From Ceratodon purpureus (taxonomy: Eukaryota > Streptophyta > Bryopsida > Pseudoditrichales > Ditrichaceae), in assembly GCA_014871385.1 (NCBI GenBank), contig CM026423.1:24250906-24314905 (forward strand): 64,000 bases of DNA, in the 5' to 3' direction. This document shows positions 15,773 to 50,199 of this stretch, one piece after another. Position 1 is the first letter of the stretch. Every line of letters begins with the position of its first letter. Made by a program: the position numbers and the translations under genes. Below the pieces are notes generated by a model that saw only the letters and a list, made by a program, of their open reading frames with translations, searched no databases and had not been told where the DNA came from.

Positions 15773-17137
15773 ATGGAAGACAACTACCAAGGGTGGGACA
15801 AGGAAGAATTGGCTAGAAGACAGGCAGCAGAGAGGCTGGCCAGATACGAGCTCAGGGAGCAGCAGAGAGCAGCAGTTGAACCAGGCAGGAACATGGGGGG
15901 GCAGCCCAGTTCTGAGGAGAGCATTGCCAAAGGAAAGACCAGGGACTTGATTGACATGGACCTGGTGGGCGAAAATTCAAGCCAGGAGACAATGCTTGGA
16001 GTAAGCAGGAGGATCGGATCAGCTAAAGGTGAACCTGGTCCCAGTTTCAAGAACTAGCAGGGGGATGAAGAGATTTGGAAGTACGATGGCACAATGCCAT
16101 CCCCAAGGACCAGCAGAAGGGAGTTTCCAAGACCAGGAGGTGGAGACGTCCATCACAATTGGAATCCTCAACTGGAGACAGCAGTAGCATACGACCAGTT
16201 TCAAGAGGAGCAGAGGAGGAACACCAGCCGACCTAATACACCAAGACCAGGAATACAGACACCAGGAGACTTGGGGGAGACGCTGGAGACACTGAGGAAG
16301 AAACTGGACCAGGTCAGGAGTGAAGACAGGGCCTCAGGAGAGGCAGTACCCAATTCAGACCCGACCAGGACCAGCAGACAAGGACAGCAGACCACCAGGA
16401 AGCAGACAGTCCAGTTCGTCCAGGACCAGTTCCAAGGACCAGAGCAGGATGAAGAAGAAGAAGATAGGAGACAGTTGGAGCAGATTAAGGCCAGGCAGCA
16501 GGCCAGGAGGAAGGCAGAGCAGGCCAGGAGGCAGGCAGAGCAGGCCAGAAGGGACCAGCAGACCATGGAAGAGGTGTACAGACACCAGATGGAGGAGCTA
16601 GGACAAGCCACTAGGTTCAAGGAAACCATGTAGGCTTGGGAGCAGAAGAATAGGGAAGAAATTCAAATGAAGGAAGCCATGAGGCTATGGCAGGAGACCA
16701 AGAGGATAGAGGAGCAGGACCAGGAGAGACAGAGGCAGGAAGCCCTTAGATCCTGGCAGGAGGCTCAAAGGAGGGAAGAAATCAAGCAGGCAGCCGAGAA
16801 GCAGGAGGCCATGCAGCAGTACCTGCTACGCCAGGAGGCCATGCGTCTATGGCAGGAGGCCCAGAGACTGGAGGACCAGAAGAAAAAGGAGGAAGAGAGA
16901 CAAGAAGCAACCCGCCAGTCCACCATGTATAGGTGGCAGGAGGTGTTGAGGGAGGAAAGTCAGAAATTACAGGCCCAGCAGAAGGACATGTGGCCAGGAT
17001 ATGAACAATGTGAGGTACCAGGTGGAAGATCGGGTCCAGCAAAATCAGCAGAAGTGATGGGGGTACCAGTACCAACAACTGCTATACCCCAGGGACCAGC
17101 AGAGAGCCATTTCCACCACCAGACAAGACCAGCAGGT
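15773..17137 (+). pseudogene. Gag N-terminal part (first half, interrupted)
   Basis: The frame starts at ATG 15,773 (MEDNYQGWDKEELARR) and runs to the insertion site of the nested element at 17,137. It encodes a Gln/Arg/Glu-rich protein with a long predicted coiled coil from about 16,440 to 17,000, built on QARRKAEQARRQAEQ and repeated RLWQEAQR-like units. Two in-frame TAG codons lie at 16,055 and 16,631, and both are followed by more sequence of the same character, so the frame is a single reading frame with nonsense changes. The same frame resumes at 35,211 once the nested element and its 4-bp duplication are left out. The role by family is the structural protein of the virus-like particle of an LTR element. 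Confidence 0.7.
17134..17137. repeat. Target-site duplication AGGT, left copy
   Basis: AGGT precedes the left terminus and is repeated at 35,207-35,210. Removing one copy with the element keeps the gag frame in phase, which supports both the duplication length and the boundaries. A shorter TA duplication would shift the frame. Confidence 0.75.
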
Positions 17138-17164
17138 AACACCATATTCGTTATTTTGGGAGAT
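17138..17164 (+). repeat. Left terminal inverted repeat (27 bp)
   Basis: It begins AACACCATATTCGTTATTTT and ends GGGAGAT. It is a perfect complement of the right end at 35,180-35,206. Partial copies of its inner part (ATTTTGGGAAAT, CATCTCCCA) follow within 60 bp. Confidence 0.9.
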
Positions 17165-17720
17165 ATTCTTGATTTTGGGAAATCAGAGTGCAGAGAAATG
17201 GCGACATTTGTCATCTCCCATTTACTTCAATCTTGCGGAAATCAATATTGAATCATTAATAACACCTTAAAGGAACAATGAGGCCCATGTCATTTAGGTC
17301 GAGTGGACCTAAATGCACGGACATACAGGAGAAAACTTAGTAATGTTCATTGATTCATCAAAAACATGTTTAAATAGAGATGATGATTAAGTCATTTAGG
17401 TCGATCACACCTAAACGCAATATAAACAAGGAAAAAGAATATACCACGTCCCCTGTAATTTTAGTAGTAACTATCCGTTACCTTTTCTAAACCAAGGTTT
17501 CAATAAAAGGCAATGTCCACTCACATAAATTACATTCGGAAACTTGAATAACACAAAAAGTGTGCAAGACAATGAGGCAAAAATAGCAGACGAGAAAATT
17601 TGACAAACAAATCAATCGTTTTATTCAAAACATAATTACATTGAAATAACACAGAGGAGTCTTATAATCGTCTATATTGTCTGCGCCATTGCTATACAGT
17701 ACATAGTATCCTCTATATGG
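17165..17720. repeat. Left subterminal region with two outer-class palindromes
   Basis: There is no gene. Two 21-bp palindromes of the TTTAGGTC...GACCTAAA class lie at 17,293-17,313 and 17,395-17,415, with centres GAGTG and a less perfect GATCACA. Their spacing to the end and class match the right subterminal region. Confidence 0.75.
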
Positions 17721-18550
17721 TTATGGAGTCCCTCCGTAAGCCTCAATTCTTGACTTGACAAATTCCCGTTGGCGCTGACGTGTCCACGACATTCCCTCAA
17801 CCTGCATCATTGGACTATCAAGAAGACGTTGCAACTTCTGCCTACGCCTGTCACCGATGCTTGACTCTGGCAGAGAGTGGCGACGGGTACTGGATGGTTT
17901 AGAGTGGGAGTCGGCGGACTTCCTTGCCCTGGATCCAGTAGTTGTTGATCGCAGCCTCGGCATCTGCAAAGGGGATAAATTAGCATTGGGAAGAGATTTC
18001 GGTTTAGGTCGAATCGACCTAAACTGCTGAGTGCAATTGTAAAGGTCGAACGGACCTTGAACGAGGAGGCCTACATAAGCTACAACTAGACCTACACGAG
18101 AGTATAAGAAGATCAATCATTTTAGGTGGCCTCGACCTAAAATAAGGACATCAGAATGAAACATCATGAAAGAAACTTACAAGAATGAAACATCAGAAAG
18201 GAATGAAGAGTGAATACTGAGGAATGAAAACCAACCTTTGCCGGTGGTGGTGACGGCATGTCCACCACATTGTTATAAAGAGCACGCTTCGTAGGGGTAG
18301 AACTCTGTCGTTTCGGAGATAGAACATGCAGTACGGTCCGTGGCCACATAGGAGAAGGGGATTTCAGGGTCTTGGGAACGGACAGGTTAACCGGGCTGTC
18401 CACAACCCCTTCGTCGACAGCCATAGTTGAATAGTCCATCGTGGACTGCGCTGTTGCAACGGATTGCAACAGAAGCCCTCTGCTACGTAGAGAGGGCCCG
18501 CAGCCATAAGCATAATTCAAAGAATCCACAGAGGCTCGACATGCATTATC
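17721..18550 (-). CDS. Small basic protein with Ser/Thr-Pro motifs (two exons visible)
   Basis: Two exons are supported: 18,550-18,236, preceded by the acceptor TGTATTGCAG, and 17,963-17,721, joined across an intron with GT at 18,235 and acceptor CTTTGCAG. Both junctions are phase 0. A first exon may lie upstream, but internal methionines also give a start (TMDYSTMAVDEG). The product is basic, with SPK and TPTK motifs (VLSPKRQSSTPTKRALY), and a C-terminal Arg/Gln-rich helix (RRRQKLQRLLDSP, WTRQRQREFVKSRIEAY). No family is recognised. The SP/TP sites look like substrates of proline-directed kinases, and the neighbouring gene is an FCP1-like (pseudo)phosphatase, which is suggestive only. The intron holds outer-class palindromes at 18,003-18,023 and 18,121-18,141. 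Confidence 0.6.
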
Positions 18551-18781
18551 CTGCAATACACAAAGCGAATAGAAACATACATCCACCAATAATTCAGCAA
18601 TGGATAAGGGTTCGTCGCAAGGGGGCAGAGTAGATCAAGAAAGAAATATGATCTTCGTATTACAAAAGGAGTAGTCTGGATACAAAGATTACGCAAGTGG
18701 TTAAGATGTACAACATACTAATAGGTGCGCGGCAGTGATGAAATGTCTATTCACAAAGTAGAGAACCGGAACCATGCGAAA

Positions 18782-19895
18782 TTATGGTCTACGACTAATT
18801 GCCTCATTAATCTTAGCGTATTGTTCACAGGTAGAACGGTCATCATAATACATTTTCTTCCCGATCGGACGCTCGGCCCTGAATCTAGCGATTGTCCCCA
18901 CAAAGTGGTGTAGGTCTACAAGATATGGCAAAAGTTTCGACAACAAAAAACGATCATCTGCGGCATCGGGATTCTGGTTGTTCCAAGTGGAGAGTAGAAG
19001 GACATTGTAAGAATTATTCTGACAGTGCTTGATCGGGCTGTCGTCGATAAAAATGGTGTTGGCTTCGGAATATATGCCACCAAATTTACGAAAGAGACCA
19101 TCGGACATCGGCTTAAGGAAGATGTACTTCTGAGTCCCGGGTTCCTTCATATATACCGGACGACCTCGAAAATCTACGCCCATAGGAACTCTCTGACAGT
19201 CCTCTTGACCTAGAATTCTGAGTGGATAGACAGGACGAATCGGACCGAACAGATAGTCGCAGATCATTTTTGTCGTCGAAGTCTTCATCGAACTCCAGAC
19301 GGTTATGGTTGCGAATGCTGACAACCGACGAAGGAAATCAGCGCAATTGGGCCTGACACAAACAAGCTTGGGGCCCACGACTGTTGGCTTGGACGCTGAG
19401 TGGATGCTAAGGTCATGGCTAACGAATGATTTTCCAGGCCAATTAGGAGTACTGGAGCATAGTATTCCATTAAGGTCGAGGACAACGTTCAACCAACCAC
19501 TCTGAGGTCTTGTCGGGACAGGACTCAATTCTTCACTAGAACTTACGTCACATCCAGATGCCTCGCGCACCTGGAGAGGAAATACCGATGACAGATGGAC
19601 ATTACTATATTATACTAGGACGGGGTTATACGAATGATACAATAAGGACAGTTGCAAGGCAAGTCATTCTCGAAGGAAATAGTGCAACGAGATATAATGA
19701 TAGATGAAATACCTGAGCATCCTCGGCTTGGCTTTCTACAACATCCCGATCCTCCACAGGACCCATCGACCCTAATGAATTCTGAGGTTGATCGCTAGGA
19801 AAGACCTCTACGCACGTTGGCAAGGTCAGAGCGCACTGGGCCGTGACATCTAAATCCATATTTGTGCATCCAGTCTCATCCGCAGTTTGGGCCAT
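18782..19895 (-). CDS. FCP1/NIF-like HAD phosphatase-fold protein, probably a pseudophosphatase (two exons)
   Basis: Exon 1 runs from ATG 19,895 to 19,713 (donor CAG|GTATTT). Exon 2 starts at 19,570 (acceptor CCTCTCCAG) and ends at the stop at 18,782. Both are phase 0, giving about 320 residues. Exon 2 has the NIF/FCP1 order: LNVVLDLNGILCS (motif I), ITVWSSM (motif II), KYIFLKPMS with the motif III lysine, and TIFIDDSP (motif IV). The family dephosphorylates Ser-Pro sites such as the RNA polymerase II tail, using DxDGT. Here the second aspartate is Asn (DLNG), so the general acid is missing and activity is doubtful. I recall a plant FCP1-like subfamily that also reads DLNG. It lies on the same strand between the ParB-like gene and a Ser-Pro-rich small protein. 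What it does for a transposon is unknown. Confidence 0.75.
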
Positions 19896-20155
19896 GACAA
19901 CATCATCCACGACCCGAAGATATTCCACTTCCTCATTCACTTCGTGACCTGGGCATTGCAAGAGAACTATTGAATCATCAGAGAGTGATCAATGAAGCTG
20001 ACATAGAAGGGATTGGTAAACAGTTGAACGGTTTAGCTCGGGTCGAGCTAAACAGCCCATTTGTATTAATTACAATCGTTTTGGTACAAAATGCACATTT
20101 CAGTGAACTACTCCGGTATTAACACCTCATCTACAAAATTCCGAGTTCAAAAAAT
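19896..20155. other. Intergenic spacer with one inner-class palindrome
   Basis: A palindrome with centre G lies at 20,032-20,052 (one half-site base changed). No gene was seen. The 3' end of the ParB-like gene and the upstream region of the FCP1-like gene fall here. Confidence 0.6.
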
Positions 20156-23100
20156 CTAAGTTTGGGAGGGACCTGAAGATGTCTCGGGAGCATCTCCCTG
20201 AGTCTGATTGTGGGAGGGAGAACGGGGAGGACTGGGACTACGGTCACGCATGACCTGGTCGGTGGAATGATGGCTTGGCTCAGGCACTGCTGCGGGACTC
20301 GGATCCGACTCTGGCAATTTTGCACCACCAGTAGGGGAGCCCAAAATCTCAAGTACTCGCGAAGTAGGCAGGGCACTACCTATCGGCTGGACATTGGGCA
20401 GAACTGGACCCGCATTCGGGAAAAGAGTGGCACTACTCATGCCTTGCAGAACATTCTGCAGTGCCGCCTGCACGGTCTTCTCTATATCCTTTTCCTGCTG
20501 TGCCATCCGATCTTGTAATGCTTTATTCCTCGCATTGGACGCCTGCAATTCTGCGAGAATAGCTTGAATATCCGGATCGGGAGCGGCTCTCCCCAACGGG
20601 GAGGCTTGCCGAGCTGGAGGATTGACCCTCTTTTTCTTCTGAGCCGGCTTTCCAGTACTTCGCGCAGCGCCAGTCTTTCTCCCACTTCCGGATCCCAGCT
20701 CCGGTGCAGAACCCGGTCTCTCATCATCCGTACGTGTAATGTCGACGTCTGGAAACTCGAGTCTTCTCCCCACTCCACCCTCAGATGCTGTCTGACTTAC
20801 CGGATCAGAAGGCGGAGCATCGCTCTCATTGCTAATGTCCGCAGCACTGGAGGAGGGGGTCTGTTCCTCGGTGGGGGCATCCTCCTCCAGATCAACATCG
20901 TCACCCTCCTCCGCAGCTCTGCCTTTCCCTTTCCGCACGGCTCTGCCGTATTCCGGAAACCGTTCCTTATCGACAAAATAAGCGTCTACAGTAAAATCGG
21001 TTGGGTCCAGAGTTAATCCAAGTGCCTGAGCTTCGACCATATGAGGAGAGTCACTATCATCCGCGACCACGAAAGACGAGATCGAGAGCATCTGAAGAAA
21101 ACAAAGACAAGGTAAACACGGTTTAGCTCGACTCGAGCTAAAGTGTGGAAGTGTGTGCATACATGGTGCATGTGATAAAAACAGTGGAACGATTCAACTC
21201 GACTCGAGCTAAAGTGTGGAAACTTACCGCGGCGGCTATGAGGGACTTCGTTCCCGCATAGAGCTGATAAACCGCCACCCCAGTACTGCAGAAAGTGTCG
21301 AGGACCTGCAGGTAGAACTCCATCCTTAACTCGGATGGATACATTGCGTACCTCCTTTCGTTGAACTTCCTGTTGTCCTTGTACAGTGGGTGGTCTGCAG
21401 TTCTGTACTCGCTCAGAGGTTCTGGCGTTGACACTTCGTTCTCAAGTAAATTATCATCAATGAGAAACAGGAGTTTGACGGGTTCCATCGCGATTCTGCT
21501 CTTTGGGGGGTGTCCGCCGAGTCGCTCGTTAGGAGCGGGTAAATACTCTGAATGGACTCTTCTGCGACCACTCAAGGTGTTTCGCTCCACCCAAGTGAGC
21601 ACCTGGGCGAAGTCCTCATCGTCTCCGCAAATGAGAAGCCAGTGCCGAACATCGTTAAACTGGGGCTGCCCATACTCTTCGATCATATTGAAAAACTCCA
21701 TGAAGAAGGGGTTCTCCAAAGTGTAGTTCTGCCTCGTCTTGTAGGTTGGGAGGAACCGGAAGTCGATGATTCCGAATGTGAGTGCGCCGCCCGCCAACCT
21801 CCATATATCGGAGGGCCAAGATCCGAAGGCGAGTCGAGGCTCCCTGATGAATGGGAGGAACCACATCTCAGCTGAAGGACACTTAAACGCATGTCTAACC
21901 TTCAGGAAGGTTTTAAAGAACTCAACCGCATATGGGGAGAGATCCTTGGCCGACTTGTTGCGGAACTGTGTAGCTCTGGAGTTAGTCCAGTACGAGTCTG
22001 GAATACCCCAATCAAGCAGAACGTGCTTCGACTCCTTAGAGACAAAGTAAGTCTTCTTGAACTGCTTCCAAGCGGGTACATCAAGGCCGTCTCTCTTGAA
22101 TAAATGGAGCGTTGGATTAATGTTGTTGAACTCCGCTTGAGCTACAGCCTTACGTTTTCTCCGCTCCGCCCACTCCTTGACCGAGTAGCAGTCCTCCAAT
22201 ACACTCGTATTCTGCTTGATGGTCACCTTCGGATATGTGTACTTCCGACTTGGCCCAGACTTATGCAGGATGTGCTTACACATCTTCTGGTGATCTGCCT
22301 CTGTCAAGTTCCCGAGCCATTTGAAGAACTCCCTCGGAAGCGTCCCATCCTTGTCCGGAACGAACCCCTTCCTCTCATAGAATTTCTTATGCGGAGGTTC
22401 GGTGTCGGGATCAATGAGTCCACCACATGCTGCAGACGCGATCACCTCCTTCCACAGGTCCCATGTTTCATCACTGGATGTGATGATAAACAGCTCGTTT
22501 GTTAGGGAGATAGTGTTCTTCCCTCCCTTCTTCGCCACCATGGCTTGATGCTTCGCCACATCGATCATAGCGAAGCGCTCCCTGATAGCATTCAAAAAGT
22601 TCTGCATACGCACAGGAAGAAACCTTAGATGATGCTGTCTCGGAACTACTCTTTAGCTCGACTCGAGCTAAATTGATCGAGATATACCAGAATATTGATA
22701 ACGAAAAAGATTATCAATATTTAGCTCGACTCGAGCTAAACTGCAGGAAGTTTAGCTCGAGTCGAGCTAAACTGCTAATGCTAATGAATCAGTGAACTTA
22801 CCTCATATGTCTTCGACGCTGGATTACTTTTCGGACCTGTACTCCTGCGGTCCGCAGCACCAGCGGCAGCATTTTTCTTCTGGGGCTTACCATACCTCTC
22901 CCACACTTTTCTAGCGGCAAGTATATTGCTCGCCCAAGTTGGCTTGAAGGGTGCGAGATGGTTCACCCGATTATAGAATGCTGAGATTTTTCGCAGCTTA
23001 TCATGATCCTTCGTCCAGACGATGTACGCATCCCACCTCCTGAAGTCCCTCAACAACTCCTCACTGGCGTTATCCTCGATGAGAGATTTGGACGCCGCCA

Positions 23101-24259
23101 CGCTGTGTTGCCCGTTGATGATGTGGAATTCACAGCCTTCCAGATCCGATTCTTGTTGAGGTCGTGCCTTTGTGTCTGGCATCAGACACAGGGTTTGCTT
23201 TTGACCCCTATCAGGCATGTTGACCAGGTAATTCTTCATCTCCTCCATGCCCCGCTTCTCATATGCACGGATAGTCCATGCGGCCGGTGCGGGCTTGCAC
23301 CGCGTCACGTCCACACTGAACTTCTTTGGTTGCCCATTCGTTTTGAAGACGAACTCGTCCTGGCAATCAGAAAAGAAATTCTGGTAAATGCGATTGGCGT
23401 TGTCGAAGTCCAGGATCTCTCCAGCCTTGTTCACCTTGGGGAGTTCTCCGAGAACAGAGTTCAAACTTGTTGCCAAGTCCTCCGCAGATAAGAGCAAGTC
23501 CTTCTTGGGCTTTGGCTTGTCAGTTTTCTTCTCGAGTCCTTTCTTCTTCAATGGTGAGTGGGGCGTGGGAGTTGCAGAAGCGCCCCGGCTTTGGGATGGA
23601 ACTATCGCTCTCCCCCTACTGCGTCCTGTCTGTTGGCTCCCCATTTGACTCCCGGTTGCTGTCACTCCAGAAACGTCAATTTGAGATTTTCCGAGGTTCT
23701 GCTTCACCTTTGCCTCCGTTGCGCGGAGAGCAAGGGTGCAGACAACATTCCTCAGTTTCCACGCTAGGGATTTCGCCCCGAGAGTTCGTCCATCCTTTGT
23801 TGCCCATTTCTTGTCCAGTATTTCTTGTCTCATCGTGGACACTATCTCCTCGAAAGGTGAATTGGACAAACTTTCCATTAAGGAAATGGGGTCGAAGAGG
23901 TTCTCCGCTACGTCTACTACTATGGAGAAGAGGTATGGATTAGCCCCGGTAGATGAGCAGAGGATCCTGATTTGGTCTTTTCCCTTATTGTCACACTCGG
24001 TGACCTTTGTATCCATATCGATGACCTCGGGATCATTGACTTCTCCCTTGAAAATGGTTGCGAAGGTAAGATATGGGGTGTATGCAACCCATCGCAGAGT
24101 CCAATGTTTGACCTTCGTGGGGTCTTTGAAGGTCCACGGCTCGTATGTGCTTGAGTCATCCCCGTCATCGTCATCTGAATCAGATATAGGAACAGGCTTG
24201 AAGAAATGTCGTAGCGCCTCAGTTACCCTTGCTCTCTCCTCACTGCAAGGAGGACACAT
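20156..24259 (-). CDS. Large nuclear-type protein with ParB-like (IxGQHS) and possible DNA-methyltransferase-like segments, three exons
   Basis: Exons are 24,259-22,802, 22,601-21,228 and 21,091-20,156. The junctions GAG|GTAAGT...TATGCAG|AAC and GCG|GTAAGT...TTCTTCAG|ATG are all phase 0. They give about 1,255 residues. Exon 1 has an acidic N-terminus (SDSDDDDGDD), a Lys/Ser-rich linker, and near residue 385 CEFHIINGQHSVAASKSL, which matches the GxHR-type loop of ParB/sulfiredoxin-like nucleotide-binding domains. Exon 2 ends with FYLQVLDTFCSTGVAVYQL, like the DxFxGxG motif I of permuted (beta-class) DNA methyltransferases. ParB-like plus methyltransferase fusions are known from phages and mobile elements. 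No DPPY motif is visible, so catalysis is unproven. Exon 3 is acidic and Pro/Ser-rich with a short coiled coil (MAQQEKDIEKTVQAALQNV). Five palindromes lie in its two introns, none in its exons. Confidence 0.72.
21092..21227 (-). other. Intron 2 of the ParB-like gene with two palindromes
   Basis: Consensus GTAAGT donor and TTCTTCAG acceptor. Palindromes lie at 21,122-21,142 and, with two half-site mismatches, at 21,193-21,213. Confidence 0.75.
22602..22801 (-). other. Intron 1 of the ParB-like gene with three palindromes
   Basis: Donor GAG|GTAAGT and acceptor GCGTATGCAG. Palindromes lie at 22,652-22,672, 22,720-22,740 and 22,751-22,771. The last two are separated by only 10 bp. Confidence 0.78.
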
Positions 24260-24284
24260 TTACCATTAGTCAAATTCAAAGCCA

Positions 24285-24974
24285 TTTAGCTCGATTCGAG
24301 CTAAATGTTGATACTATTAATCAAGTAACCGATTGCATCCCAGCAGTTTAGCTCGAGTCGAGCTAAACTGCTTGGGCTTTCAGCATGGGAGCCTTGCAGT
24401 TTACCTCGACTCGAGCTAAACTGCAAGGGGATCATGCGGGGCATCCTAGCAGTTTAGCTCGAGTCGAGCTAAACTGCAAGGGGATCATTGAGGCAGTTGA
24501 GAAATTTAGCTCGACTCGAGCTAAATTTCTCGACGCCCACCATGATCCTCTTGCAGTTTAGCTCGGCTCGAGCTAAACTGCCAGGACTTTAGAAGGGAGA
24601 ACCTTACAGTTTAGCTCGACTCGAGCTAAACTGTAGGTTTCTCTTCTAGGAAATTAGGGGAGTCACACCTCTAGTTTAGCTCGACTCGAGCTAAACTCTA
24701 AGGTTCTCCGCAGTTTAGCTCGAGTCGAGCTAAACTGCAGAGCTCCCACAGTTCACAACTTACAGATTAGCTGTAAGTTCAGTACTGTGAGAGCTCTGCA
24801 GTTTAGCTCGACTCGAGCTAAACTGCAAAGCTCCTTACAGTTTAGCTCGAGTCGAGCTAAACTGCAAGGCTGTATAACAGAATTTTTCTCGTTTAAATGT
24901 GTCAAAATTATTGTTTTTATTCAGTTTTAGTACTTTTTTTTTGGAAGCTGCAGTTTAGCTCGACTCGAGCTAAA
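24285..24974. repeat. Palindrome array A (12 copies, main period 52-53 bp)
   Basis: Palindromes start at 24,285, 24,347, 24,400, 24,453, 24,505, 24,557, 24,610, 24,675, 24,714, 24,802, 24,841 and 24,954. Each is a TTTAGCTCGA half-site, one central base (C, G, T or A) and the complementary half. Most are extended by GCAG/CTGC to 29 bp. Six successive steps are 52 or 53 bp, five DNA turns at 10.5 bp. Spacers carry partly related sequence (TGCAAGGGGATCAT and its complement), so some neighbours form larger inverted repeats. The array lies immediately upstream of the ParB-like start codon. Confidence 0.92.
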
Positions 24975-26440
24975 TTGTTGACGTTCTATATGGAGATTTA
25001 TACAAAATTGGCATTTGGTTGGTTACCTCTCTGCCATTTCTTGATGGATTTATTCAATTTCTGGAAGGAATGTCTTGTCAAATTTGTTCTTCCTGCAAAA
25101 AAGAATCATGGTTGCAGAGGATCAGAACATACATCTATAATTAAAATGTTGTAGAATTGTGCCGAAAAATACGGGTGAATAGTACAAATGAACTTGGATT
25201 CCATATGTACAGTTCCTATAATAAGCTAATGGGATCTAATAAGCATACGGTGAAACATGTGAATGTGAGCATTGGCGCCAAATTGTACCCAATTCAGGAA
25301 AAGATGTGATTAAACATAACTTCAACTATAACACAAACTACATCTGAATGCAGTCACCTCATCCATAAAATCTATAAATTTCTTCACACAGCAATGACAC
25401 TCATGCAGAAACAGTCCTAACACAGATTCAGAATCACTTGAAATGCATGCCCTCTAATCCCAATACAAATAACACGAGAATTCCTATCCAAACCTAGCAA
25501 TTACAGTCAAGCATCGAACATACACACGCTGAATCCAATTACAAAGACTCAAGTTGTCCATGATTTCTGTGGATATTCACTGTAGAGATTACTGGACATG
25601 ATACGACAGGATTCTATTACTCATTTGCAGTCAACAAAACCAATTTGCAAGCGAATTTGCAAAAAAGAGACTCAATTTACGATACAGATAGCACCGATAG
25701 AAAAAGAACACACACAGAAAACTGCAAGAAGAGGGGGAGGATGATGACTGACCTTGAAATGGTCTCGACAGACCCGTACTTCGTACACCTCCGCAATCTC
25801 CACTACACGTTGCGTTTGTCGATGCAGTCTGAACTGAATCACCGCAGTCTAAGCAAATCACCGCCAGTTTGTCCTAACAAAATACGTGAAACCCTAATAG
25901 TTCTGTAGCTATTCGAACACTCAGACGCGCAACTCTCAAAGTATATCCCCGCATCAAAGTATGCACAGAATCCCTAAAACAAGTTTGGTATACACCTAAA
26001 AAAGCCTCCGCGCACAAACCCCTCTCAAACATGCACCGAAAACCTAAACCTTCAACACCGAAAACGCTGTCAACTAATCACACCTCATTGAAACTACTCA
26101 ACCGCAATGGAGCTAACAAGTCTACACACTAAAACCCAATGAACTCGCGGGAAACTATCAATAAGCAGTAAGCAAACTACTACAACGAAACAAATTCGCG
26201 CCACAAGAACGGAAACTCGTGCCACAGAAAACCCAGAGACAAGAACACGATGAAGAGGTCGGGGGTGGGGGTGAACTGTTCCTCGCCCCCGCGGGGGCTG
26301 AAGACCGCGCCGCCGTGAAGATGAACTCTGTCACCGCGGGGTCCAAAGCCCGTGCCCACGGCTTAAGAGTTTTGAATTTCAATTTAAATGCTAAGAGTTC
26401 GAACTTTTGGAATTATTGGTCTTTAGGAATTTATGTGTAT
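24975..26440 (-). promoter_or_regulatory. Upstream/leader region of the minus-strand gene block
   Basis: There is no recognised protein. Composition is balanced, in contrast to the AT-rich DNA beyond 26,440. A candidate 5' splice donor on the minus strand (TTTCAAG|GTCAGT) lies at 25,753. An acceptor-like TCCTCCTTGCAG at 24,243-24,254 overlaps the predicted start codon, so array A may lie within a leader intron. A GC-rich segment with CCGCGGGG lies near 26,280-26,345, in the likely transcription-start region. The corresponding part of copy 2 (57,265-58,690) keeps the same order but is much diverged. Confidence 0.45.
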
Positions 26441-27244
26441 TGATAATAAATTTATGTGTATTGATAGGTTTGAATTAAAATTGAGGCCCACATAAATTTC
26501 ACGCCAATTTGGAGGTTTTGACATAATACTCCATTTTAAACCTTGAAGTAGGCAAATTATTAACAATTTTTAAAGGATGACAATGTTTATTTTTATTCAA
26601 GAGAAATAAATATTTATGACATTGAATGCCTCGTAACATTGTCATGAAATTGATTAAATCTTCATATATATTGAAATGAATTGATTCAATCAAAACTTAA
26701 CTCCAACTATTATTTATGTATTGATGTATTGTTTAAGAAATTTAATCCAATTGAGGTCTAGTTTATATTCCAAATTTATTAATATTAATTGAATACGAGA
26801 CGTCTACAAATTTAATTAACATAATAATCCTTTCAAATATATGAAGTTAAAATATTTTCGAGGGGAAATTTAATTTGACTACACAAGAGTAGTGTTTATA
26901 TAATAATTTGTAATTATATAACGAAAGCGTCAAATATGAATACACTATTAGCATAAAAAAGGAATTTACTATACTTTAATTGGAAACATATTTACGTAAA
27001 TGTTATCATCATATTCTTAAAGTACATGTTAGTATCATAATTTATTTATAATATAATAATATAGTATAGTTTACTAAGATACTAATATATTCATTTACAA
27101 TTTCATATTTAATTAATGATAATAATACTAGAATTATAATCTATATTCAAATCTATATACAAATCTAAAAATGATATATAAGTATATTCATGGTATGCCT
27201 TGTATGATTAGCATTTTTAAAATAATAATAACTAAAATACTATT

Positions 27245-27365
27245 AATGATTTAATAGTATTATAGTTATCATTAATAGTATTATAGTTATCATTAATAGT
27301 ATTATACTATAAATGCTTTAATAGTATTATAGTTATCATTAATAGTATTATAGTTATTGATAATA
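27245..27365. repeat. Short tandem repeat (TTAATAGTATTATAGTTATCA-like units)
   Basis: About five imperfect units of roughly 21 bp containing AATAGTATTATAGTTAT are arranged in tandem inside the left arm of the island. Copy 2 lacks this expansion. Confidence 0.8.
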
Positions 27366-28200
27366 ATGGAATGCCTTGTATGATTAGCATTTAATGATAA
27401 TAATACTTCAATTTTATATATAATTAGTATTTTTAACAATGTACTTCATATATATGCCTTGTATGATTAGCATGTATATTACAATAGTTTTAATCAATTC
27501 TTTCACGTTCTACCTTGACTAATATTTTTACAACTTTATTACATTCTAATAAGAGAGTGGAATGCTTGCTTCATTTGCATAATTTTAAAATACAGAATTC
27601 ATAATTCATAGATTCAAACGAAATTTACTACTACATTTACTAGTTAGCATGGACATATAAGAATACGAAATACACAAATATGAAAGCATCAAATGAAACA
27701 CTGGTTTTCGTCTAGAAGAGCCCTGTTTTGAAGGCATTCCATTCCAGAAATAGTTTACAATCCACACGGGGAATACCAGCAGCAAAAGTTACCAAAAGAT
27801 GAAAGTCATATCTTTTCACATCTATGGTTTCCAAATATTGTATAATCTAACGGTTGTGCTAACTACTCCTGGAGTCGCCATTCCATATCTGAGGTGTTTA
27901 GCAGCAAAAAGTAAAATCGTAGAAGTATATGGAAGATGCCTGGGAGTTCTGGAGAAAAGATAAAAACAGGATCAGATGGTATGATGTTTAGGGTTCAAAA
28001 CGGAAAAGTGCATGTCAAAAGCAAGGACTCATCCTCCTAACAATCAGAACGAACACAGCATGAGCCACTACAATGCTGCGCAATCTATATTTATGAAAAC
28101 ATCAAACTGAGGACAAGGTTAAGGGTTCCGAGGAGATAACAATTCACCTACTCCTTCATGTGGTGGGCTCCCCAAATCCACGCTCCCCTCCTCATTAGAA

Positions 28201-28728
28201 TCAGACCTCCCCAGAGGTGAGGGGAAAATCGATGTTAGAAGCGGTCATAATCGCCACTAGCTCTAGAGTATGTGCAAGAGTCCAATCCCACTCCGCACCA
28301 GGCTGCATTACGCGTGCAATGTAGTTCCATGGGGGAATCTCTACGCCGCGACCACGGGCGCGTTCCACCGCCATAAACCACGGACGAACCTCCTCCACTC
28401 CTTGTGGCCAAACAACCGGCTGCCACTCATCCTCATTAGAATCAGCCATGGAGAAGCCCTCGTTGGAGGTGAGGGGGAAATCGATGTTGGAAGCGTTCAT
28501 AATCTCCACTTGCTCTAGACCATGTGCAATAGTCCAATCCCACTCCACACCAGGCTGCATTTGGCGTGCAATGAGGTTCCACGGAGGAATCTCTACGCCG
28601 CGACCACGGGCGCGTTCCACCGCCATAAACCATGGACGAAGCTCCTCCACTCCCTGTGGGAAAACAACCGGCTCCCACTCGTCTGGCGAGTAACTTGACA
28701 CCCTAAAACCACCGCCCGCCCTCCTCAT
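28201..28728 (-). CDS. Small protein of two tandem ~77-residue Trp-rich repeats
   Basis: From ATG 28,728 (MRRAGGGFRV) the frame encodes 175 residues made of two related repeats. Shared features are W-PVV-PQGVEE-RPWFMAVERA, GRGVEIPPWN, IAR-MQPG-EWDWT-AH-LE, and ASNIDFPLTS. The frame stays open upstream to 28,935, but the equivalent upstream stretch in copy 2 is frameshifted while the repeat itself is kept, so I prefer the internal ATG. Copy 2 has one repeat only (61,206-61,541). The repeat is rich in Trp and charged residues and has no known motif. It sits in the centre of the AT-rich inverted-repeat island, facing the minus-strand genes. Function is unknown. Conservation in two diverged elements argues that it is a real gene. 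Confidence 0.6.
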   Translation of the reverse strand: MRRAGGGFRVSSYSPDEWEPVVFPQGVEELRPWFMAVERARGRGVEIPPWNLIARQMQPGVEWDWTIAHGLEQVEIMNASNIDFPLTSNEGFSMADSNEDEWQPVVWPQGVEEVRPWFMAVERARGRGVEIPPWNYIARVMQPGAEWDWTLAHTLELVAIMTASNIDFPLTSGEV

Positions 28729-29780
28729 CACGGCAAATGAACTAGAAGCAGATGAAACAAAAGGGAAACTAAGAATGAAATTACTGTTTCGTCGCCCTAA
28801 GGAACTTATGCTTATGAAGCGGCATTGGGGGAAGCCGAATGTTCCAGAGTAACGAAGGGGACTTTGTCTAGACTCGGTAACGGGACTTTGACCGATGTGG
28901 GCTTTTGAAAGTCCGGATTTACTGAAATGTGTCATTTTACTCTATTATTAAAGAATTGATTAATGGGATTGTATGCTTAGACAAGCATCTAGAGCCTCTC
29001 TCGACATTATATATTAATACTACAATTATAATTATGATCATTGGTTTAATACGTTTCATTTGAATCCATAATTTATGAGTTTTTTTTTTTAAAATGAATG
29101 AACCAAACATTCCACTTTTTTATTAGAATGTAATAAAATTGTACAAATAGAAGTCAAGGTACAACATTAATGAATTGATTAAGGTTTGTGTAATTTCCAT
29201 GCCAATCATACAAGGCATACCATGGTTTAAATATTCGCTTCTCATGAATATATATAAAAAACCATAAACCTTTTAAAAAATATAAAGAATTTGCCATAAT
29301 AAACGAATTGATTTCTATAATCTAATACTTTTATTTTTAACAATGTACTTCGTATATATACTTGAATATATTTGTATATCATTTTTAGATTTGTATATAC
29401 TTGAATATAGATTATTATTCTCATATTATAATCAATAATTAAATATAAAATTGTAAATGAATATATTAGAGCCTTAGTATACTATACTATATTATAATAT
29501 TATAATTAAATTATGATACTATCATGTACTTTAAGAATATTAGGCTTACATTTAGGTCAACGTACTTTCACCCCATGCCTATCATACAAGGCATACCATG
29601 GTTCAAATATTTGCGTCTCATGATTAAATATAAAAAATTCAATCTTCTAAAAAACGTATATAATTTGCCATGAGAAATGAATTAAATTCTATAATCTAAT
29701 ACTATTATTTTTAACAATGTATTTCGTATATACTTGAATATACTTGTATATCATTTTAAGATTTGTATACATTAGATTTT

Positions 29781-30258
29781 AGTTAATTATTCTCGTACTA
29801 TTCTTAAGTGGACATTAAATTGTTAATAAATATATTAGTACCTACTTGTAAATGAATATATAATTATATTATATATATTATAATCCTAACATGTATATTA
29901 AAAATATACATGTTAAGATGTAGAGTTCCAAAAATGAAAGAACAAATCTACACCATTCACGGCGTAAAGAACACATTATGAAATAAATAGAGACATAAAT
30001 AAAAGTACATTAATATATATACATGATAATTATATCTGACTAAATTTATAGAATAAATAAATGTTTCTAAATTTGATTTCATATATCATATATAATAATG
30101 AAATTGAGCAAAAATACATATTTAGTAAATGGAGGTATGAATATTTGCAACGATATACTTCCCTGTATCAACCAGACTCACGAATTTCAATTAGGTTCAA
30201 ACAATTTTCGATTTAATTTTATTCCATGTACGACATATTTAATGTCCCTAAAAATGCC
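29781..30258. other. AT-rich DNA, no gene
   Basis: Nothing supported apart from near identity with 62,600-63,130 of copy 2. Confidence 0.5.
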
Positions 30259-30341
30259 TTAACCCTAATACCCTAAACCCTTGACCCTGGACCTAAGACC
30301 CTAAACCCTTAACCCTGAACCCTATACCCTAAACCCTGAAC
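30259..30341. promoter_or_regulatory. Cluster of CCCTAAACCC telo-box-like motifs
   Basis: Several degenerate CCCTAAA and AACCCT units occur within 80 bp. In plants, AAACCCTAA boxes occur near transcription starts of growth-related genes. This cluster sits about 600 bp before the transposase array and is conserved at 63,131-63,219 in copy 2. The units are too irregular to be true telomeric repeat. Confidence 0.45.
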
Positions 30342-30344
30342 GCT

Positions 30345-30861
30345 GATAGAGGAAGAAAAGTTCGCGGCCAAAAGTCAACACTCTATCTGGCGCTATAGGG
30401 ACTTCCAACCCATCCCATTTGATTAAATGCACCAAATATTTCGCATCTGCATCTATCTAAAGGGCCGAGAAGTGTGGAAAGTGGTACTTCCCGCGCTTTC
30501 TCACACCCCGAAATGTGGAGGGTCGAATGGTCATGCATGATTCCCGCCTATTTTCAAAACTCAAGCGGCATGAAAACGGTCACACGTTAGAGAATGACCT
30601 CTGGAATCGTCCCCGCTCGAAGTCTTTTCTCTACTCACTTGCTTCTCTCGCTTGTAGGAGCTCTCGGCGCTCACTTGGAGGTTGTTGTTTTCTGGGCGGA
30701 AGCTGTATTGCGCCGTTTCTGTTGTACGTCTTCTCTTTAGTTTTCTCCGATCATCAGTACACTTCATTGATATCTGCTTGTTTTATGCTTTCTATTGATT
30801 CAGACATTGTGTATTTGCAGTGTCTCTCTTTCCTTCTTACAGACGTTTTAGAGCGGACACC
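30345..30861 (+). promoter_or_regulatory. Putative promoter and non-coding first exon of the transposase gene
   Basis: This less AT-rich block is nearly identical to 63,226-63,733 in copy 2. A donor-like ACACC|GTAAGC at 30,861-30,862 could pair with the acceptor TTACATTTCAG at 31,371-31,381, which would put palindrome array B in a 520-bp leader intron. In copy 2 the GT of this donor is AT. No protein is recognised in the block. Confidence 0.45.
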
Positions 30862-30940
30862 GTAAGCGTACTCTGAGTCTGCGACTCAGAATTCCGAAGA
30901 TGGAAGCACCTATTAAAGCGCCGCTTTTTGCGGACGGCAG

Positions 30941-31291
30941 TTTAGCTCGACTCGAGCTAAACTGCTGCATCCAAAGAGCATCATGAGTTTAGCTCGACTC
31001 GAGCTAAACTCAAGCACCCAAAGGGCAGCATAGGTTTAGCTCGACTCGAGCTAAACTACCGCACCCAAAGGGCGGAAGAAGTTTAGCTCGACTCGAGCTA
31101 AACTTCTGGCCCCATTTGGGTGCGGTAGTTTAGCTCAAGTCGAGCTAAACATCTGTATCCAAAGGGCAACACGAGTTTAGCTCGACTCGAGCTAAACTTC
31201 TGCATCGAAAGGGCAGCAGCAGTTTAGCTCGACTCGAGCTAAACTCATGCTTCCCATTGTCCAGGATCAGATTAGCTCGACTCGAGCTAAA
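30941..31291. repeat. Palindrome array B (8 copies, 47-bp period)
   Basis: Palindromes start at 30,941, 30,988, 31,035, 31,082, 31,129, 31,176, 31,223 and 31,271. Six of the seven steps are exactly 47 bp and the last is 48. Spacers of 26 bp are related, with a CTGCATCCAAAGGGCAGCA-like core. The array ends 96 bp before the transposase ATG and probably lies in a leader intron. It resembles a CRISPR array in geometry only. Confidence 0.93.
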
Positions 31292-31386
31292 CTGCGCCTG
31301 GGATAAGTTCTCAAATTTAGAGATTAATTCTCTTTAAGGAGTATAATATGTTCTAACAGAATTGGGTCTGTTACATTTCAGGTACA

Positions 31387-34224
31387 ATGGACTATGTCTT
31401 AGATGACGAGGTTCCCGTTGAAGTGCCCGTAAACCCAGACCTTCCAGACTTCGTGGTTGTACCCTCAAGACAATGGCAGAACAAGACTGTAACAATATAT
31501 AGCGACGACAATATCCCGTTAGCAGAAGGTTTGATCCGGAACCCACGGTCCAGCTTGGTATCTGACACGGTTGGTCCCCTTGGTGATTCCGTTGTCGTCG
31601 TCCAGGTATCACGTTCTTTGGTCGAAGAAGAGTCAGAGGATGATTGGATGTACTCCTTCAAAACGTGGCCTATCAGCCACGTCTATCTGGATGGAGTTAG
31701 CCTAGAGCACCATAGTCAACGTGATGTGTATAACCGTTGGGTTGCGGAGCGTAACCGATCCCTGGGAGATCGTACCCGATCGTATGATAACTCCTCTAGG
31801 AATACCCCCCCTCCTATATCACGTCACGCTGAGTTTCTGATGACCCAGCCATCTATCAACTCTGTAGCGGCAAACACGTGCTGCGCTCACCTATGCGTCC
31901 AACACTATCCCAGAGATAAAATCTCTAGTCTACGGTCGCGTATGTACGACAAGACCACAGTGCAGTTCCGTAATCACATAAAACTCGACGTGCATAGACA
32001 GATCCACAAGAATTCAGCGGGGAAGAGTGTGGTGACTCTGGAGGGCATAGATGTTTGCCCCTTCGCCTGGATGAAGATTATGGGAGTGAGCTCCAGTACA
32101 TTCTATAGAAATGCCCAGTATGCTGCTGCTGGTTTCGAGGCTCAATTTCACGGTAATACTGGTTTACGTAAACCTCGAAATCACACAGTGGTAGCAACTG
32201 CCGTCCTAGGGGCCATCCTGGACAGGCATGCCGACCACATGCCCCACAAGAGTCGTGTTCTGCCTTCAGGGGAGACAGTTGTAGCTAAAGTTCTGCCTTC
32301 CAGTTTCAAATGGAAGGAACAGATTCCCATCCTCGATGAGCATTTAGCGGACTGCGGATTGCCTCCTATGTCCGCTTCTAACTTGAGCAAGATCAGGAGG
32401 CTTAGCTATCCAGAATATTACGCCAAACGAGCAGGAGACAACTTCGCTCGTTGCTCAAAATGTGATGAGTTCCAGTCCCAGAAGAAGTTGACGGTTACAG
32501 GATCTCAGGCGTCCCTGTTGTGGTCTAAGAAAATGAGGCTGCACAATGACTCTGCAATGGCGCATAGGGACTTGTACTACCTAAATCGATTCAGGTCGAA
32601 GGCTACTCCGCATGAAGTTCTTACTATTATGCATGACAAGATGGACCACTCGAAGACGGCGTCGCCGGCCTTATCCCACAAGGTCAAACACTTAGACGGT
32701 CTCATGAAGCTTCCTCTCGCTGTCACGGGAATGCTTGCTCATGGGCATGTGGACCAACGTTACGCCCATTATGGCCTTGACATTTACTCACACGACGCTA
32801 ATTACACGGTTGGATCGTTTGCGAAGCTCCTTCGGGACCTTGAGTCACCCCCTAAATCCACCTCTAGGGAACTCTTTCAAGAGAATCCTTCCCACCCATT
32901 GTATGCCGCGCTTTTGCATGGTTCAGAGATGTGTTTGGATCCTCTTGGCCCTCCTCCTGAGGTTCCTGTTGCTGCTAAACCCTTGCCTCCCATTCTTAAC
33001 GTCCAAATGGATAACGCTGTCAGTGATAACAAGAATAGGTTTGTATTTTCATTCTGGTCCCTATTAGTCGCGAAGCGGGTGTTTCGCGAAGTGTACGTGA
33101 ATTTCATGCTGGTCGGCCATACTCATGACGATATAGATGCCCTTTTCGGACGATGGAGCATGGCTTTGCGGAGGGAGGACTTCCCCACAGTACCTCTCCT
33201 CATGAAGTCCTTCATGAAACATGAAGCAGTACCAACAATTCCGCATCTTATTCAGGAGGTCCCAGATTTCAAGAAATTCATCGCGGAGTGGATGCTTGAT
33301 GGCGACGATACGTTAATGGGTCACACTAAAGCTCATCAGTTCAAATTCTATGTAGATTCTTCAGGATGCCCAGTCATGAAGTATAAAATCTTCTGTCACG
33401 ACGACGACTGGTTGCCAAAAGGAGATGGTTGTGGCATCAAGTTGTGGAAGGAGGATTCAAAAGGTCGATCTTTATGGCCCCGTGGTGTTCCTGGTGCCGT
33501 GGCGCCTCGCGAGATGCGGCACCTGCCTGATGTGATTAAGGGCTTGTCGGGTTTTGTAGATCATTGGGAGAGGCTATCTTCGGATTCAGTCGAGTCCAGA
33601 AGAATCTATGAGCCACTCTCATACTATTGGAACGATGTTAAACAGGCTCTTTCCATTCCCTTTGATGTTGTCCCCGCCTTGGAGCATGGTTTTTGGCCAT
33701 CCACGCGGCTCGCTCACTCCGTCGAAGACGAATTTCAGGAAGATGGAACTTTGCGCGAGGAGTTCGCAGAGGATGATCACTTTGTTGGTCACAAACGAGA
33801 TCGCCCAGGACCGTCGTTCCGTGTTGCGCGAGACCTTTTTGCAGGGTACTTCTTAGCATTACGACCCTGCGATGAAGACGATCGTCCTTTCTGGCTTGCG
33901 CGGGCCTTGACTGACCCTAATTCGAACCCTGACCTCCCAAACACGCTCCAAGTAGAGTTCTACCGCCCAATTTCCCGAGATGAAAATGTTTTGAAATTCT
34001 ATACCGGCTGGGAGGTGGATGGGAGACTTCGTTGGACAGTTGAGAAGGATGTACCCGAGTCGTGGCAGAGTACTGATGCAGTCATAACAGCTTGGAAATC
34101 CAAAGTTAAAAAAAATGTCAACGACCGGGGCGTTGGCAAGGATCCAACGCTGAAGATCCCACTGAAACAACTGGACATTATAAAGGCCTCCTTGGAGAGA
34201 TTTGTGTCTCCGGATTCTGAATAA
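31387..34224 (+). CDS. Transposase candidate with RNase-H-like DDD core (DUF7869-like), 945 aa
   Basis: One intact frame begins at ATG 31,387, six bases after the acceptor TTTCAG. A Cys pair (CSKCDEF) lies near residue 356. The core has IMHDKMDHSK (Asp 417 and 420), LNVQMDNAVSDNKNR (Asp 542) and FMLVGHTHDDIDALF (His 578 and 580, Asp 582 and 584). That spacing, with DN..NKN and HTHxDID, is the pattern I associate with the RNase-H-like domain catalogued as DUF7869 in transposon-derived proteins. The C-terminal 200 residues (FAGYFLALRPCDEDDRPFW, KFYTGWEVDG) look like a compact beta-rich domain, possibly chromatin-binding. It is the only transposase-like gene in the element and is transcribed away from the centre towards the right end, opposite to the other genes. 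Confidence 0.75.
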   Translation: MDYVLDDEVPVEVPVNPDLPDFVVVPSRQWQNKTVTIYSDDNIPLAEGLIRNPRSSLVSDTVGPLGDSVVVVQVSRSLVEEESEDDWMYSFKTWPISHVYLDGVSLEHHSQRDVYNRWVAERNRSLGDRTRSYDNSSRNTPPPISRHAEFLMTQPSINSVAANTCCAHLCVQHYPRDKISSLRSRMYDKTTVQFRNHIKLDVHRQIHKNSAGKSVVTLEGIDVCPFAWMKIMGVSSSTFYRNAQYAAAGFEAQFHGNTGLRKPRNHTVVATAVLGAILDRHADHMPHKSRVLPSGETVVAKVLPSSFKWKEQIPILDEHLADCGLPPMSASNLSKIRRLSYPEYYAKRAGDNFARCSKCDEFQSQKKLTVTGSQASLLWSKKMRLHNDSAMAHRDLYYLNRFRSKATPHEVLTIMHDKMDHSKTASPALSHKVKHLDGLMKLPLAVTGMLAHGHVDQRYAHYGLDIYSHDANYTVGSFAKLLRDLESPPKSTSRELFQENPSHPLYAALLHGSEMCLDPLGPPPEVPVAAKPLPPILNVQMDNAVSDNKNRFVFSFWSLLVAKRVFREVYVNFMLVGHTHDDIDALFGRWSMALRREDFPTVPLLMKSFMKHEAVPTIPHLIQEVPDFKKFIAEWMLDGDDTLMGHTKAHQFKFYVDSSGCPVMKYKIFCHDDDWLPKGDGCGIKLWKEDSKGRSLWPRGVPGAVAPREMRHLPDVIKGLSGFVDHWERLSSDSVESRRIYEPLSYYWNDVKQALSIPFDVVPALEHGFWPSTRLAHSVEDEFQEDGTLREEFAEDDHFVGHKRDRPGPSFRVARDLFAGYFLALRPCDEDDRPFWLARALTDPNSNPDLPNTLQVEFYRPISRDENVLKFYTGWEVDGRLRWTVEKDVPESWQSTDAVITAWKSKVKKNVNDRGVGKDPTLKIPLKQLDIIKASLERFVSPDSE

Positions 34225-35160
34225 ACATGTAGCTTTGAAGTTGGTGGTCTTGAAGTTGTGAATTTAGTCAGATCGCTTATATTCGTTTGAAGACGACTGA
34301 ACTGAATACTGTTCGTCCCTTCATCCAACATTATGTTTTCTAGACAAAGGTAGATGTTTAGCTCGAGTCGACCTAATCAGTTATAGCGTATTAGTTCTAG
34401 CGTATTTATGTTTTGAATACTAGCTAATTACATATATTTAATTGGAGGGAACACTACTTAAGTGTTTCAGTCCATTCCTTATTATCATGTGTACCACATT
34501 ATAGGCCGCAGTTTAGGTCGACGCGACCTAAACTGCATTTGGCGTTGAAGTTCGTACTTTACGAGTGCGGGATACCAACAGGTCACCTATAGTTCTTAGT
34601 GTAGCTTTTTACTTAGTACCCTAAAGCGTTGATTCTATATCATATGTACTGCCACATAACAGCCATTTAGGTCGAGGCGACCTAAACGACATCTAGCGTT
34701 GAAGTTCCTAGTTTGGATCTCTGAAGTAGAGCCGATAACATACATTTGTTGGCATGGGACTATTATGAAGTCCGTATGTTCTTGGATTGCATATCATACT
34801 CCGGAAACTGTAGGCAGCTATGTTAGTCGAACAACTTGATTGTTTGTACAGGTCTGAAAGAGCCTGTCACGGATTCAACATTTAAGGAGTGTCGACCTAA
34901 TTTGTATTTCCACACATATATATAATATAAGATTTCCCGGCATATCCGTTGTGTCCATTTCTTGTTATTTGTTTGATGTTCATTTCGGGTGGTTCGACCT
35001 ACCTTGTATTTTTTCAAGTATTTCTAGTAAACCACTACCTTCTTTCATTTCCCATTAGTACTGTGTGATCATGTCCCAAATTAATGGAAATTGCTTATAA
35101 GCTTTTCCTTGCCAAGTATGGGACCATTGTGCCCATTTTAACTCGACCTGACCTAATGCA
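34225..35160. repeat. Right subterminal region with outer-class and hybrid palindromes
   Basis: There is no gene. Palindromes lie at 34,357-34,377 (hybrid: inner-class left half, outer-class right half), 34,512-34,532 and 34,666-34,686 (both outer class). Isolated outer-class half-sites (TCGACCTA) occur near 34,893, 34,994 and 35,142. Confidence 0.75.
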
Positions 35161-35206
35161 TTATTTTGGGAGATGATAAATCTCCCAAAATAACGAATAT
35201 GGTGTT
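35161..35206 (-). repeat. Right terminal inverted repeat with adjoining hairpin
   Basis: The 27-bp repeat is 35,180-35,206. The 14 bases TTATTTTGGGAGAT at 35,161-35,174 pair perfectly with 35,180-35,193 across a 5-base loop, so the right end can fold into a hairpin that the left end lacks in this exact form. Confidence 0.88.
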
Positions 35207-35210
35207 AGGT
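35207..35210. repeat. Target-site duplication AGGT, right copy
   Basis: Matches 17,134-17,137. The gag reading frame resumes directly after it. Confidence 0.75.
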
Positions 35211-43345: not shown

Positions 43346-43357
43346 TCAAGTGCACCA

Positions 43358-49981: not shown

Positions 49982-50199
49982 AGTAACCTCGTTTTAAACA
50001 AAAACGATATGGTTTTGTTTTAAAGAAAACAAGGAGTTGATAAATGACGTTTACAAAATAACGAATACAGAAAATTCAAAAACTCCCCCCCCCACAATAA
50101 AAAGGGACCCCCATCTCCTCACCCCCACGTACCAACAAGCTCCCAAGTGAATTGGGAAACTGTAGCAATAGGAGAGGGACTATTGAGGAGAGTGAAGTG
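49982..50199 (-). promoter_or_regulatory. Immediate upstream region of the RING gene
   Basis: Short non-coding interval with a C-run at 50,086-50,094. No clear motif beyond that. Confidence 0.35.

Follow-up and report, generated by a model that had tools for sequence, protein, structure and literature searches.

An 18-kb DUF7869 transposon of the moss Ceratodon purpureus with family-specific palindromes upstream of its genes

The En/Spm transposons encode, in a second gene besides the transposase, a DNA-binding regulator named TnpA that works through arrays of repeated sites. In Arabidopsis, VANC binds tandem motifs, specific to the family, that lie at the termini, between the genes and in the introns of the VANDAL element encoding it, and causes a loss of DNA methylation (excerpt of PMC5735166). 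Some fungal KDZ elements carry TET/JBP genes, dioxygenases that are thought to counter silencing, and the Zisupton and Kyakuja elements make 7-8-bp target-site duplications (excerpt of PMC12730594). With respect to structure, the Sola superfamily combines DDD transposases, 4-bp duplications, terminal inverted repeats (TIRs) of 11-1124 bp, sizes that can exceed 15 kb and an occurrence in a moss (excerpt of PMC10741241). The CMCT elements (EnSpm, Plavaka, ESTA and Transib), with which the EnSpm-like Lanisha (Maumus, McDaniel and Carey, Repbase Reports) is grouped, have a C(2)C and H(3-4)H signature between the second D and the last E, termini that are mostly 5'-CA..TG-3' and target duplications of 2-5 bp (excerpt of PMC12730594). 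Here we describe a large multi-gene DNA transposon of the moss Ceratodon purpureus, which lies in a stretch of 64,000 nucleotides (C3:24250906-24314905, hereafter the window, to which positions refer unless a contig or locus is named). From its sequence we think it probable that the element encodes its own transposase together with a protein that reads the palindromes of its family and thereby keeps the element's promoters active.

Judged by the same sequence, the window copy is complete and belongs to a cut-and-paste DNA transposon of ~18 kb that was active recently. It occupies positions 17138-35206 (18,069 bp) and is bounded by 27-bp TIRs (17138-17164, plus strand; 35180-35206, minus strand) that match each other without a mismatch, lie exactly where an earlier note on this DNA had placed them, and give the termini AACACC..GGTGTT. 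Comparison of the flanks finds AGGT on both sides (17134-17137 and 35207-35210). For the window copy alone, the arithmetic would also allow 28-bp TIRs and a duplication of 2 bp; an identical 4-bp duplication, varying in sequence, was found at 19 of the 20 copies with both ends in hand. There is a weak bias around the 4-bp target, with C before it in 8 and G after it in 10 of the 20 copies. The element interrupts the gag frame of a host retrotransposon, which is open once the element and one AGGT are taken out, just as the earlier note had it, and the joined 220-bp flank sequence was found uninterrupted across the joint at all 40 scored places (the best 40 of 135 candidates), three of them at 100% identity. 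The duplications and the empty site together imply a 4-bp stagger at insertion.

The same ends and proteins recur throughout the assembly searched (362 Mb, 151 contigs). At ≤2 mismatches the TIR occurs 177 times in forward and 179 times in reverse orientation (356 ends), and a control in which it was read backwards gave none. The left 263 bases are 98-100% identical in 40 scored matches (the best 40 of 185 candidates), and pairwise identity over the right 5.3 kb of 20 copies ranges from 96.9 to 100%, with a median of 98.0%. A search with the candidate transposase gave 48 scored matches (of 1,779 candidates), all full length and 97-100% identical, 35 of them stop-free. Upstream of these 48 listed copies, in opposite orientation, we found a Trp-repeat open reading frame (ORF) in 47, the first exon of an accessory gene in 42, an FCP1-like ORF in 44 and all three in 39; these counts are lower bounds, the partner positions used being 61 of 153, 60 of 87 and 70 of 146.

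Facing neighbour ends less than 60 kb apart form 31 pairs among the first 100 ends listed, at spacings of 17.6-39.2 kb. Short internally deleted derivatives are usual for DNA transposons, and none was seen among these 31 pairs. The earlier note had itself raised the alternative that the TIRs belong to a small element and that the genes are host sequence captured once. We give this next to no credence: boundaries are constant in the tested copies, the gene set is repeated and has a counterpart in a sister family (below), facing ends are at least 17.6 kb apart, and we found nothing in its support.

The candidate transposase, a 945-aa protein encoded at 31387-34224 (plus strand), matches the Pfam profile DUF7869 (PF25273) with E=1.4e-42 and 145.9 bits, against a curated cut-off of 26. 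D542 (in QMDN) and D582 and D584 (in HTHDDID) are invariant in all seven aligned relatives. The likely first acid is D417 or D420 in HDKMD (416-420), which is kept in the six sequences that cover the region, and the second and third candidate acids are ~40 residues apart, with no inserted domain in the alignment of seven. From these motifs and its constant presence we infer that the DUF7869 protein is the transposase. The ratio pN/pS is 0.105 for its gene (20 best copies) and 0.165 for the FCP1-like gene (12 best copies), values that show purifying selection on both, within a choice of best copies that biases toward intact ones.

A genome search for DUF7869 gave 150 scored matches (of 1,398 candidates), every one above the cut-off and falling into several size classes; 14 control genomes contained none. 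A 678-codon DUF7869 open frame is found with identical scores in dozens of places on many contigs (loci L075, L076 and L078-L080) and represents another DUF7869 element that spread recently in a burst. At C6:84407513-84412565, three DUF7869 matches spaced at 2.3 kb lie in one element of the sister family, a tandem multiplication of part of the transposase gene.

The sister family is defined by a 966-codon transposase that is 49% identical to that of the window element. One full copy (C5:19938702-19960840, 22,139 bp) is flanked by CATG on both sides and carries, from the left, a Ser/Pro-rich ORF, an FCP1-like gene and the accessory gene, with the transposase gene divergent from them. Most genes, their order and their orientation are common to the window family and this 49%-identical sister. 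The proteins can be aligned at 31% identity over 99 aa for the Ser/Pro-rich ORF (E=4e-6), 44% over 198 aa for the FCP1-like protein (E=1e-42) and 29% over 1,026 columns for the accessory protein (E=1e-102). The sister accessory protein was assembled from two copies: its exon 1, like part of the region before the transposase gene, is known from a copy on C1 only, and the end of exon 2 differs between the C1 and C5 copies. In addition, 34 of 44 chosen further DUF7869 hits have an accessory exon 11.7-27.1 kb upstream in opposite orientation, three of the 34 lying in one element and two having one exon in common. The genes had been described as cargo-like; because the sister keeps their order and orientation and two of them are under purifying selection, they are not cargo captured once.

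A further relative (L085, contig CADCWO010000071.1) has a transposase 68% identical to that of the window element. The contig is binned as a Synechococcales cyanobacterium, and we regard it as probably plant DNA contaminating a bacterial bin. Scans of viral contigs with the transposase, with accessory exon 1 and with the palindrome described below were all empty, and accessory exon 1 had no match in phages. A viral or bacterial origin was rejected on these scans, with L085, the sole match in the bacterial catalogue, read as contamination. On sequence criteria these elements are a set of families of ~18-22 kb that have in common a DUF7869 transposase, AACACCATATTC-type ends and 4-bp duplications.

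The accessory gene lies on the minus strand. The earlier note had described a ParB-like, possibly methyltransferase protein here; this ORF and the two next to it seem to be the three exons of a single 1,255-codon gene. Exon 1 (22803-24259) contains IINGQHS, intron 1 (22602-22802) is bounded by GTAAGT..CAG and holds three palindromes, exon 2 (21229-22601) ends in YAGTKSLIAAA, intron 2 (21092-21228) is again bounded by GTAAGT..CAG and contains an exact palindrome at 21122 and one with 2 mismatches at 21193, and exon 3 (20156-21091) is acidic, Ser/Pro-rich and coiled-coil-like. We favour a single gene because the splice sites are conserved and homology to the sister runs across both junctions (E=1.5e-43 for exon 1 and 5e-53 for exon 2, with a sister counterpart for exon 3). 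Separate ParB and methyltransferase genes are rejected on the same grounds. Exon 1 has 87 scored matches at 86-100% identity, 64 of which are stop-free, and exon 2 is also present as a further lineage at 33-41% identity. Both [YF][AS]GTKxxxAA and IINGQHS are common to the accessory proteins of the two families. The former resembles the S-adenosylmethionine motif of permuted methyltransferases and the latter resembles ParB, and the names given earlier rest on such short motifs.

Inside the window element there are 30 palindrome sites within 1 mismatch of TTTAGSTCGANTCGASCTAAA, compared with 0-1 in each of five letter shuffles, even at ≤5 mismatches, so the arrays that the earlier note had pointed out are real. 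Array A (24285-24974, 12 sites) lies upstream of the accessory gene. The transposase gene is preceded by array B (30941-31291), whose 8 sites are spaced at 47-48 bp; 19 of 20 copies have 8 sites in this array and one has 7. A single palindrome (20032-20052) separates the accessory and FCP1-like genes. The spacings of 26, 41, 47, 52-53 and 54 bp are ≤0.14 turn off half-turn multiples, which is suggestive only of helical phasing. Within the two arrays, site identity is 96% and 94% and spacer identity 64% and 61%, and three sister arrays give site and spacer identities of 95 and 79%, 90 and 75%, and 96 and 82%. The sites are therefore kept while the spacers drift. Diversity between copies in array B (0.0166 for palindromes, 0.125 for spacers) was given no main role, since alignment between copies may put repeat units out of register, and the comparison within arrays replaced it.

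The palindrome differs between the families, being TTTAGCTCGANTCGAGCTAAA in the window family and TTTAGCTCACNGTGAGCTAAA in the sister. The form TTTAGCTCACNGTGAGCTAAA predominates in the two main arrays of this family and in its intron 1; its outer bases are the same, the inner ones are changed, the symmetry is kept and both CpG sites of the window-family palindrome are missing. These comparisons show a palindrome sequence that is uniform within the window family and switched in the sister family. In the relative L085, the ≤500 bp upstream of the transposase contain one exact window-family palindrome and one near-match, and palindromes lie at the centre of the alignments of this region to the window element, of which two longer ones run from one palindrome to the next at 69-76% identity. 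The sister also has an array 3' of its transposase gene, made of 54-bp units with asymmetric palindromes (locus L081, 7745-8304), and an exact sister-type palindrome within the coding sequence of its accessory exon 3 (L087+L086, position 4790).

The palindromes lie upstream of genes, as would also be expected of sites for a host transcription factor exploited by the element, and transposon promoters can be driven by such factors. We nevertheless consider this very improbable, as two families in one genome have different inner bases throughout their main arrays. The distribution of the sites in the genome argues in the same direction. Window-type palindromes number 3,199 at ≤1 mismatch and exact matches to TTTAGCTCNNNNNGAGCTAAA number 3,532, with none in either reversed control; of the first 50 sites listed, 49 fall inside two element copies or fragments and one is isolated (C1:15616582). 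Because the palindromes differ between families of one genome, the regulator is probably encoded by the element, which suggests, by analogy with VANC, an element-encoded and sequence-specific regulator.

The perfect dyad symmetry of the palindromes, and the presence of several in introns and hence in transcripts, would also suit RNA or DNA hairpins that act in processing, in termination or as small-RNA precursors. Several array sites are altered on one side only, with no compensating change (24400, 24557 and 31129), a whole sister array has asymmetric inner halves, and arrays also lie upstream of start codons, so that hairpins appear improbable to us.

A second class of palindromes, the TTTAGGTCGA variant, lies within 1 kb of both ends and differs from the array sites by one base per half-site. 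On the left, four sites (17293-18141) at 17293, 17395, 18003 and 18121 have 1, 3, 0 and 2 mismatches to this class, the first three being kept in all eight left ends and the fourth listed in six of the eight. On the right (34357-34686), the site at 34357 is of mixed class and those at 34512 and 34666 are of the TTTAGGTCGA class; two right subterminal sites recur in all 20 right ends examined. Subterminal TnpA sites act as transposition enhancers in En/Spm, and the palindromes could likewise enhance transposition, bound by the transposase or a cofactor, and not act as switches of expression. The palindrome class near both ends in every case examined (20 right, 8 left) agrees with this, as do the joint change of palindromes and transposase between families and the lack of any facing pair closer than 17.5 kb among the 31 pairs from the first 100 ends listed, as if internal sequence were needed in cis. 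We still hold it to be rather unlikely for the palindromes as a whole, given that both dense arrays are internal and directly upstream of two divergent genes, that further sites lie in both introns, and that subterminal and array sites differ in every half-site.

We return to regulation of the element's own promoters and propose the following sequence of events. The DUF7869 protein would cut at the inverted repeats and join the element to its target with a 4-bp stagger. A protein of the element would bind the 21-bp palindromes as a symmetric complex, the predicted places being before the transposase gene, before the accessory gene and in the accessory introns. Bound to the arrays, it would keep the promoters active, probably against host silencing, with each family activating only itself. 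The 1,255-residue accessory protein is the most likely reader of the palindromes. The FCP1-like protein, with its altered catalytic motif, might couple activation to the transcription machinery, and the TTTAGGTCGA-class palindromes near the two ends may have a role in transposition and not in transcription. More tentatively, and with somewhat less than even confidence, we suggest that the transposons with a DUF7869 protein and AACACCATATTC ends form a distinct group in which a large element-encoded protein with ParB- and methyltransferase-like traces reads the family's own palindromes at promoters and within introns, and in which families arise by the joint change of protein and site. If so, the loss of CpG in the sister palindromes would alter how host CG methylation acts on the site.

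Several observations weigh against this interpretation. The choice of palindrome reader is a guess, and the transposase is a serious candidate for the role. No profile match to ParB or to a methyltransferase was found in Pfam, PHROGs, NCBIfam, PDB sequences or phages, and none of the element's products has a recognised DNA-binding domain. The gene models were built from splice signals and homology only, and the DDD triad comes from an alignment of seven sequences, three of them mutually close. The relative at 68% identity comes from a contig that had been binned as a cyanobacterium of desert crust, and one of its three upstream sites is of mixed type. In the sister family, the intron-2 palindromes are imperfect, and the palindromes of the 54-bp tandem array combine a half-site like each of the two family types. 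A test for palindromes with 8-bp arms found none in the 3.4-kb loci of the family with the 678-codon DUF7869 frame, though it also missed those of L077, a locus that ends short of its array. Finally, stop codons are present in 13 of the 48 listed transposase copies and in 23 of the 87 scored accessory exons 1, and the copy at C6:87.33 Mb, one of the 20 with both ends in hand, has no matching duplication.

Among described systems, the VANDAL elements of Arabidopsis are similar in that their non-coding regions hold a short motif specific to the family, arranged in tandem and also present in introns, and in that the motif changes together with the element's proteins, to which the mixed sister array is a partial exception. 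They differ in their motifs, which are of 8-9 bases in the same orientation (excerpt of PMC5735166) in place of 21-bp palindromes, and in the 7-12-bp duplications of Mutator elements (excerpt of PMC10741241), compared with 4 bp here. Anti-silencing activity belongs to VANC; for the window element it is a proposal. The KDZ elements share the general feature of a DNA transposon that carries a gene thought to counter silencing, but the window element makes a 4-bp duplication and Pfam detects no dioxygenase domain in the ORFs searched. TnpA sites, in turn, are short and subterminal, unlike the dense, internal arrays upstream of genes in the window element.

As to superfamily, the 4-bp duplication (19 of 20 copies, and CATG/CATG in the sister), the length of 18,069 bp, the 27-bp TIR and the candidate DDD transposase fit the description of Sola. 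The undescribed type of element that the earlier note had proposed is thus not shown, since a DDD transposase, 4-bp duplications, a size above 15 kb and presence in a moss are all reported for Sola (excerpt of PMC10741241). That the element belongs to an already named superfamily, either as a Sola with extra genes or as Lanisha, has in our estimate about an even chance. Neither palindrome arrays nor an FCP1-like gene nor an accessory gene of three exons is known to us from any Sola described so far. Lanisha probably comes from the same moss genus, and its authors reportedly work on Ceratodon; our literature search found no paper that pairs Ceratodon purpureus with Lanisha. The 4-bp duplication falls within the 2-5 bp of the CMCT elements, but the window transposase lacks the C(2)C and H(3-4)H signature between D542 and D582/584, the assigned catalytic residues, and the element ends in AACACC..GGTGTT, not in CA..TG. 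On present evidence the element is not Lanisha, as far as the excerpted description of Lanisha sets it apart. The literature search, which did not extend to Repbase, found no published description of this element or of DUF7869.

The remaining genes of the window element, present as the earlier note had listed them, lie on the minus strand. The FCP1/NIF-like HAD ORF (18782-19570; PF03031, E=1e-13) is probably an exon, with an upstream exon placed within 19626-19961. In the FCP1-like proteins of both families, Asn stands where DxD has its second Asp (DLNG for DLDE in the window, DING in the sister), and IDDSP is kept. The Ser/Pro-rich ORF (18164-18589) is the one weakly similar to the sister's leftmost gene. 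The Trp-repeat ORF (28201-28935) has an internal 252-bp duplication in the window copy, is shorter in many copies (~176-179 codons) and was not found in the sister stretches searched. A copy at 61.2 kb had raised the suspicion that it is an intruder; this was rejected because the ORF lies upstream of 47 of the 48 listed transposase copies and because the copy at 61 kb is part of another element, which is degraded. This second copy of the transposon (56666-64000) runs past the window end and has palindrome arrays at 56719-57264 and from 63813; a right-end repeat that fits it lies outside the window at C3:24332113. CCCTAAA telomere-like repeats are found in the window element between the Trp-repeat ORF and array B (30257-30346). 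Elsewhere in the window there are a hAT-type remnant (43265-46336) with DUF659 and a hAT dimerisation domain in two open frames split by one stop, and a 1,060-codon open frame (46814-49993) in which a RING finger is the only Pfam domain at E≤0.01.

The more diverged of the copies examined sit mainly on contig C6 (110.5 Mb, 30% of the genome), which by its size would be the V sex chromosome of Ceratodon purpureus strain R40. Among the FCP1-like matches (146 scored of 755 candidates), 28 of the 63 that are at least 96% identical to the window copy are on C6, compared with 80 of the 83 below 96% (Fisher p=3.5e-13).

With the more diverged of the copies examined almost all on one 110-Mb contig, the family is useful for studying transposon build-up there. 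The element also suggests a function, that of a transposase, for DUF7869, a Pfam domain of unknown function. If our interpretation of the palindromes is true, plant transposons outside Mutator would provide a second example of self-activation by a protein-site code whose two sides change together, and the two related codes in one genome make its specificity directly testable by half-site swaps.

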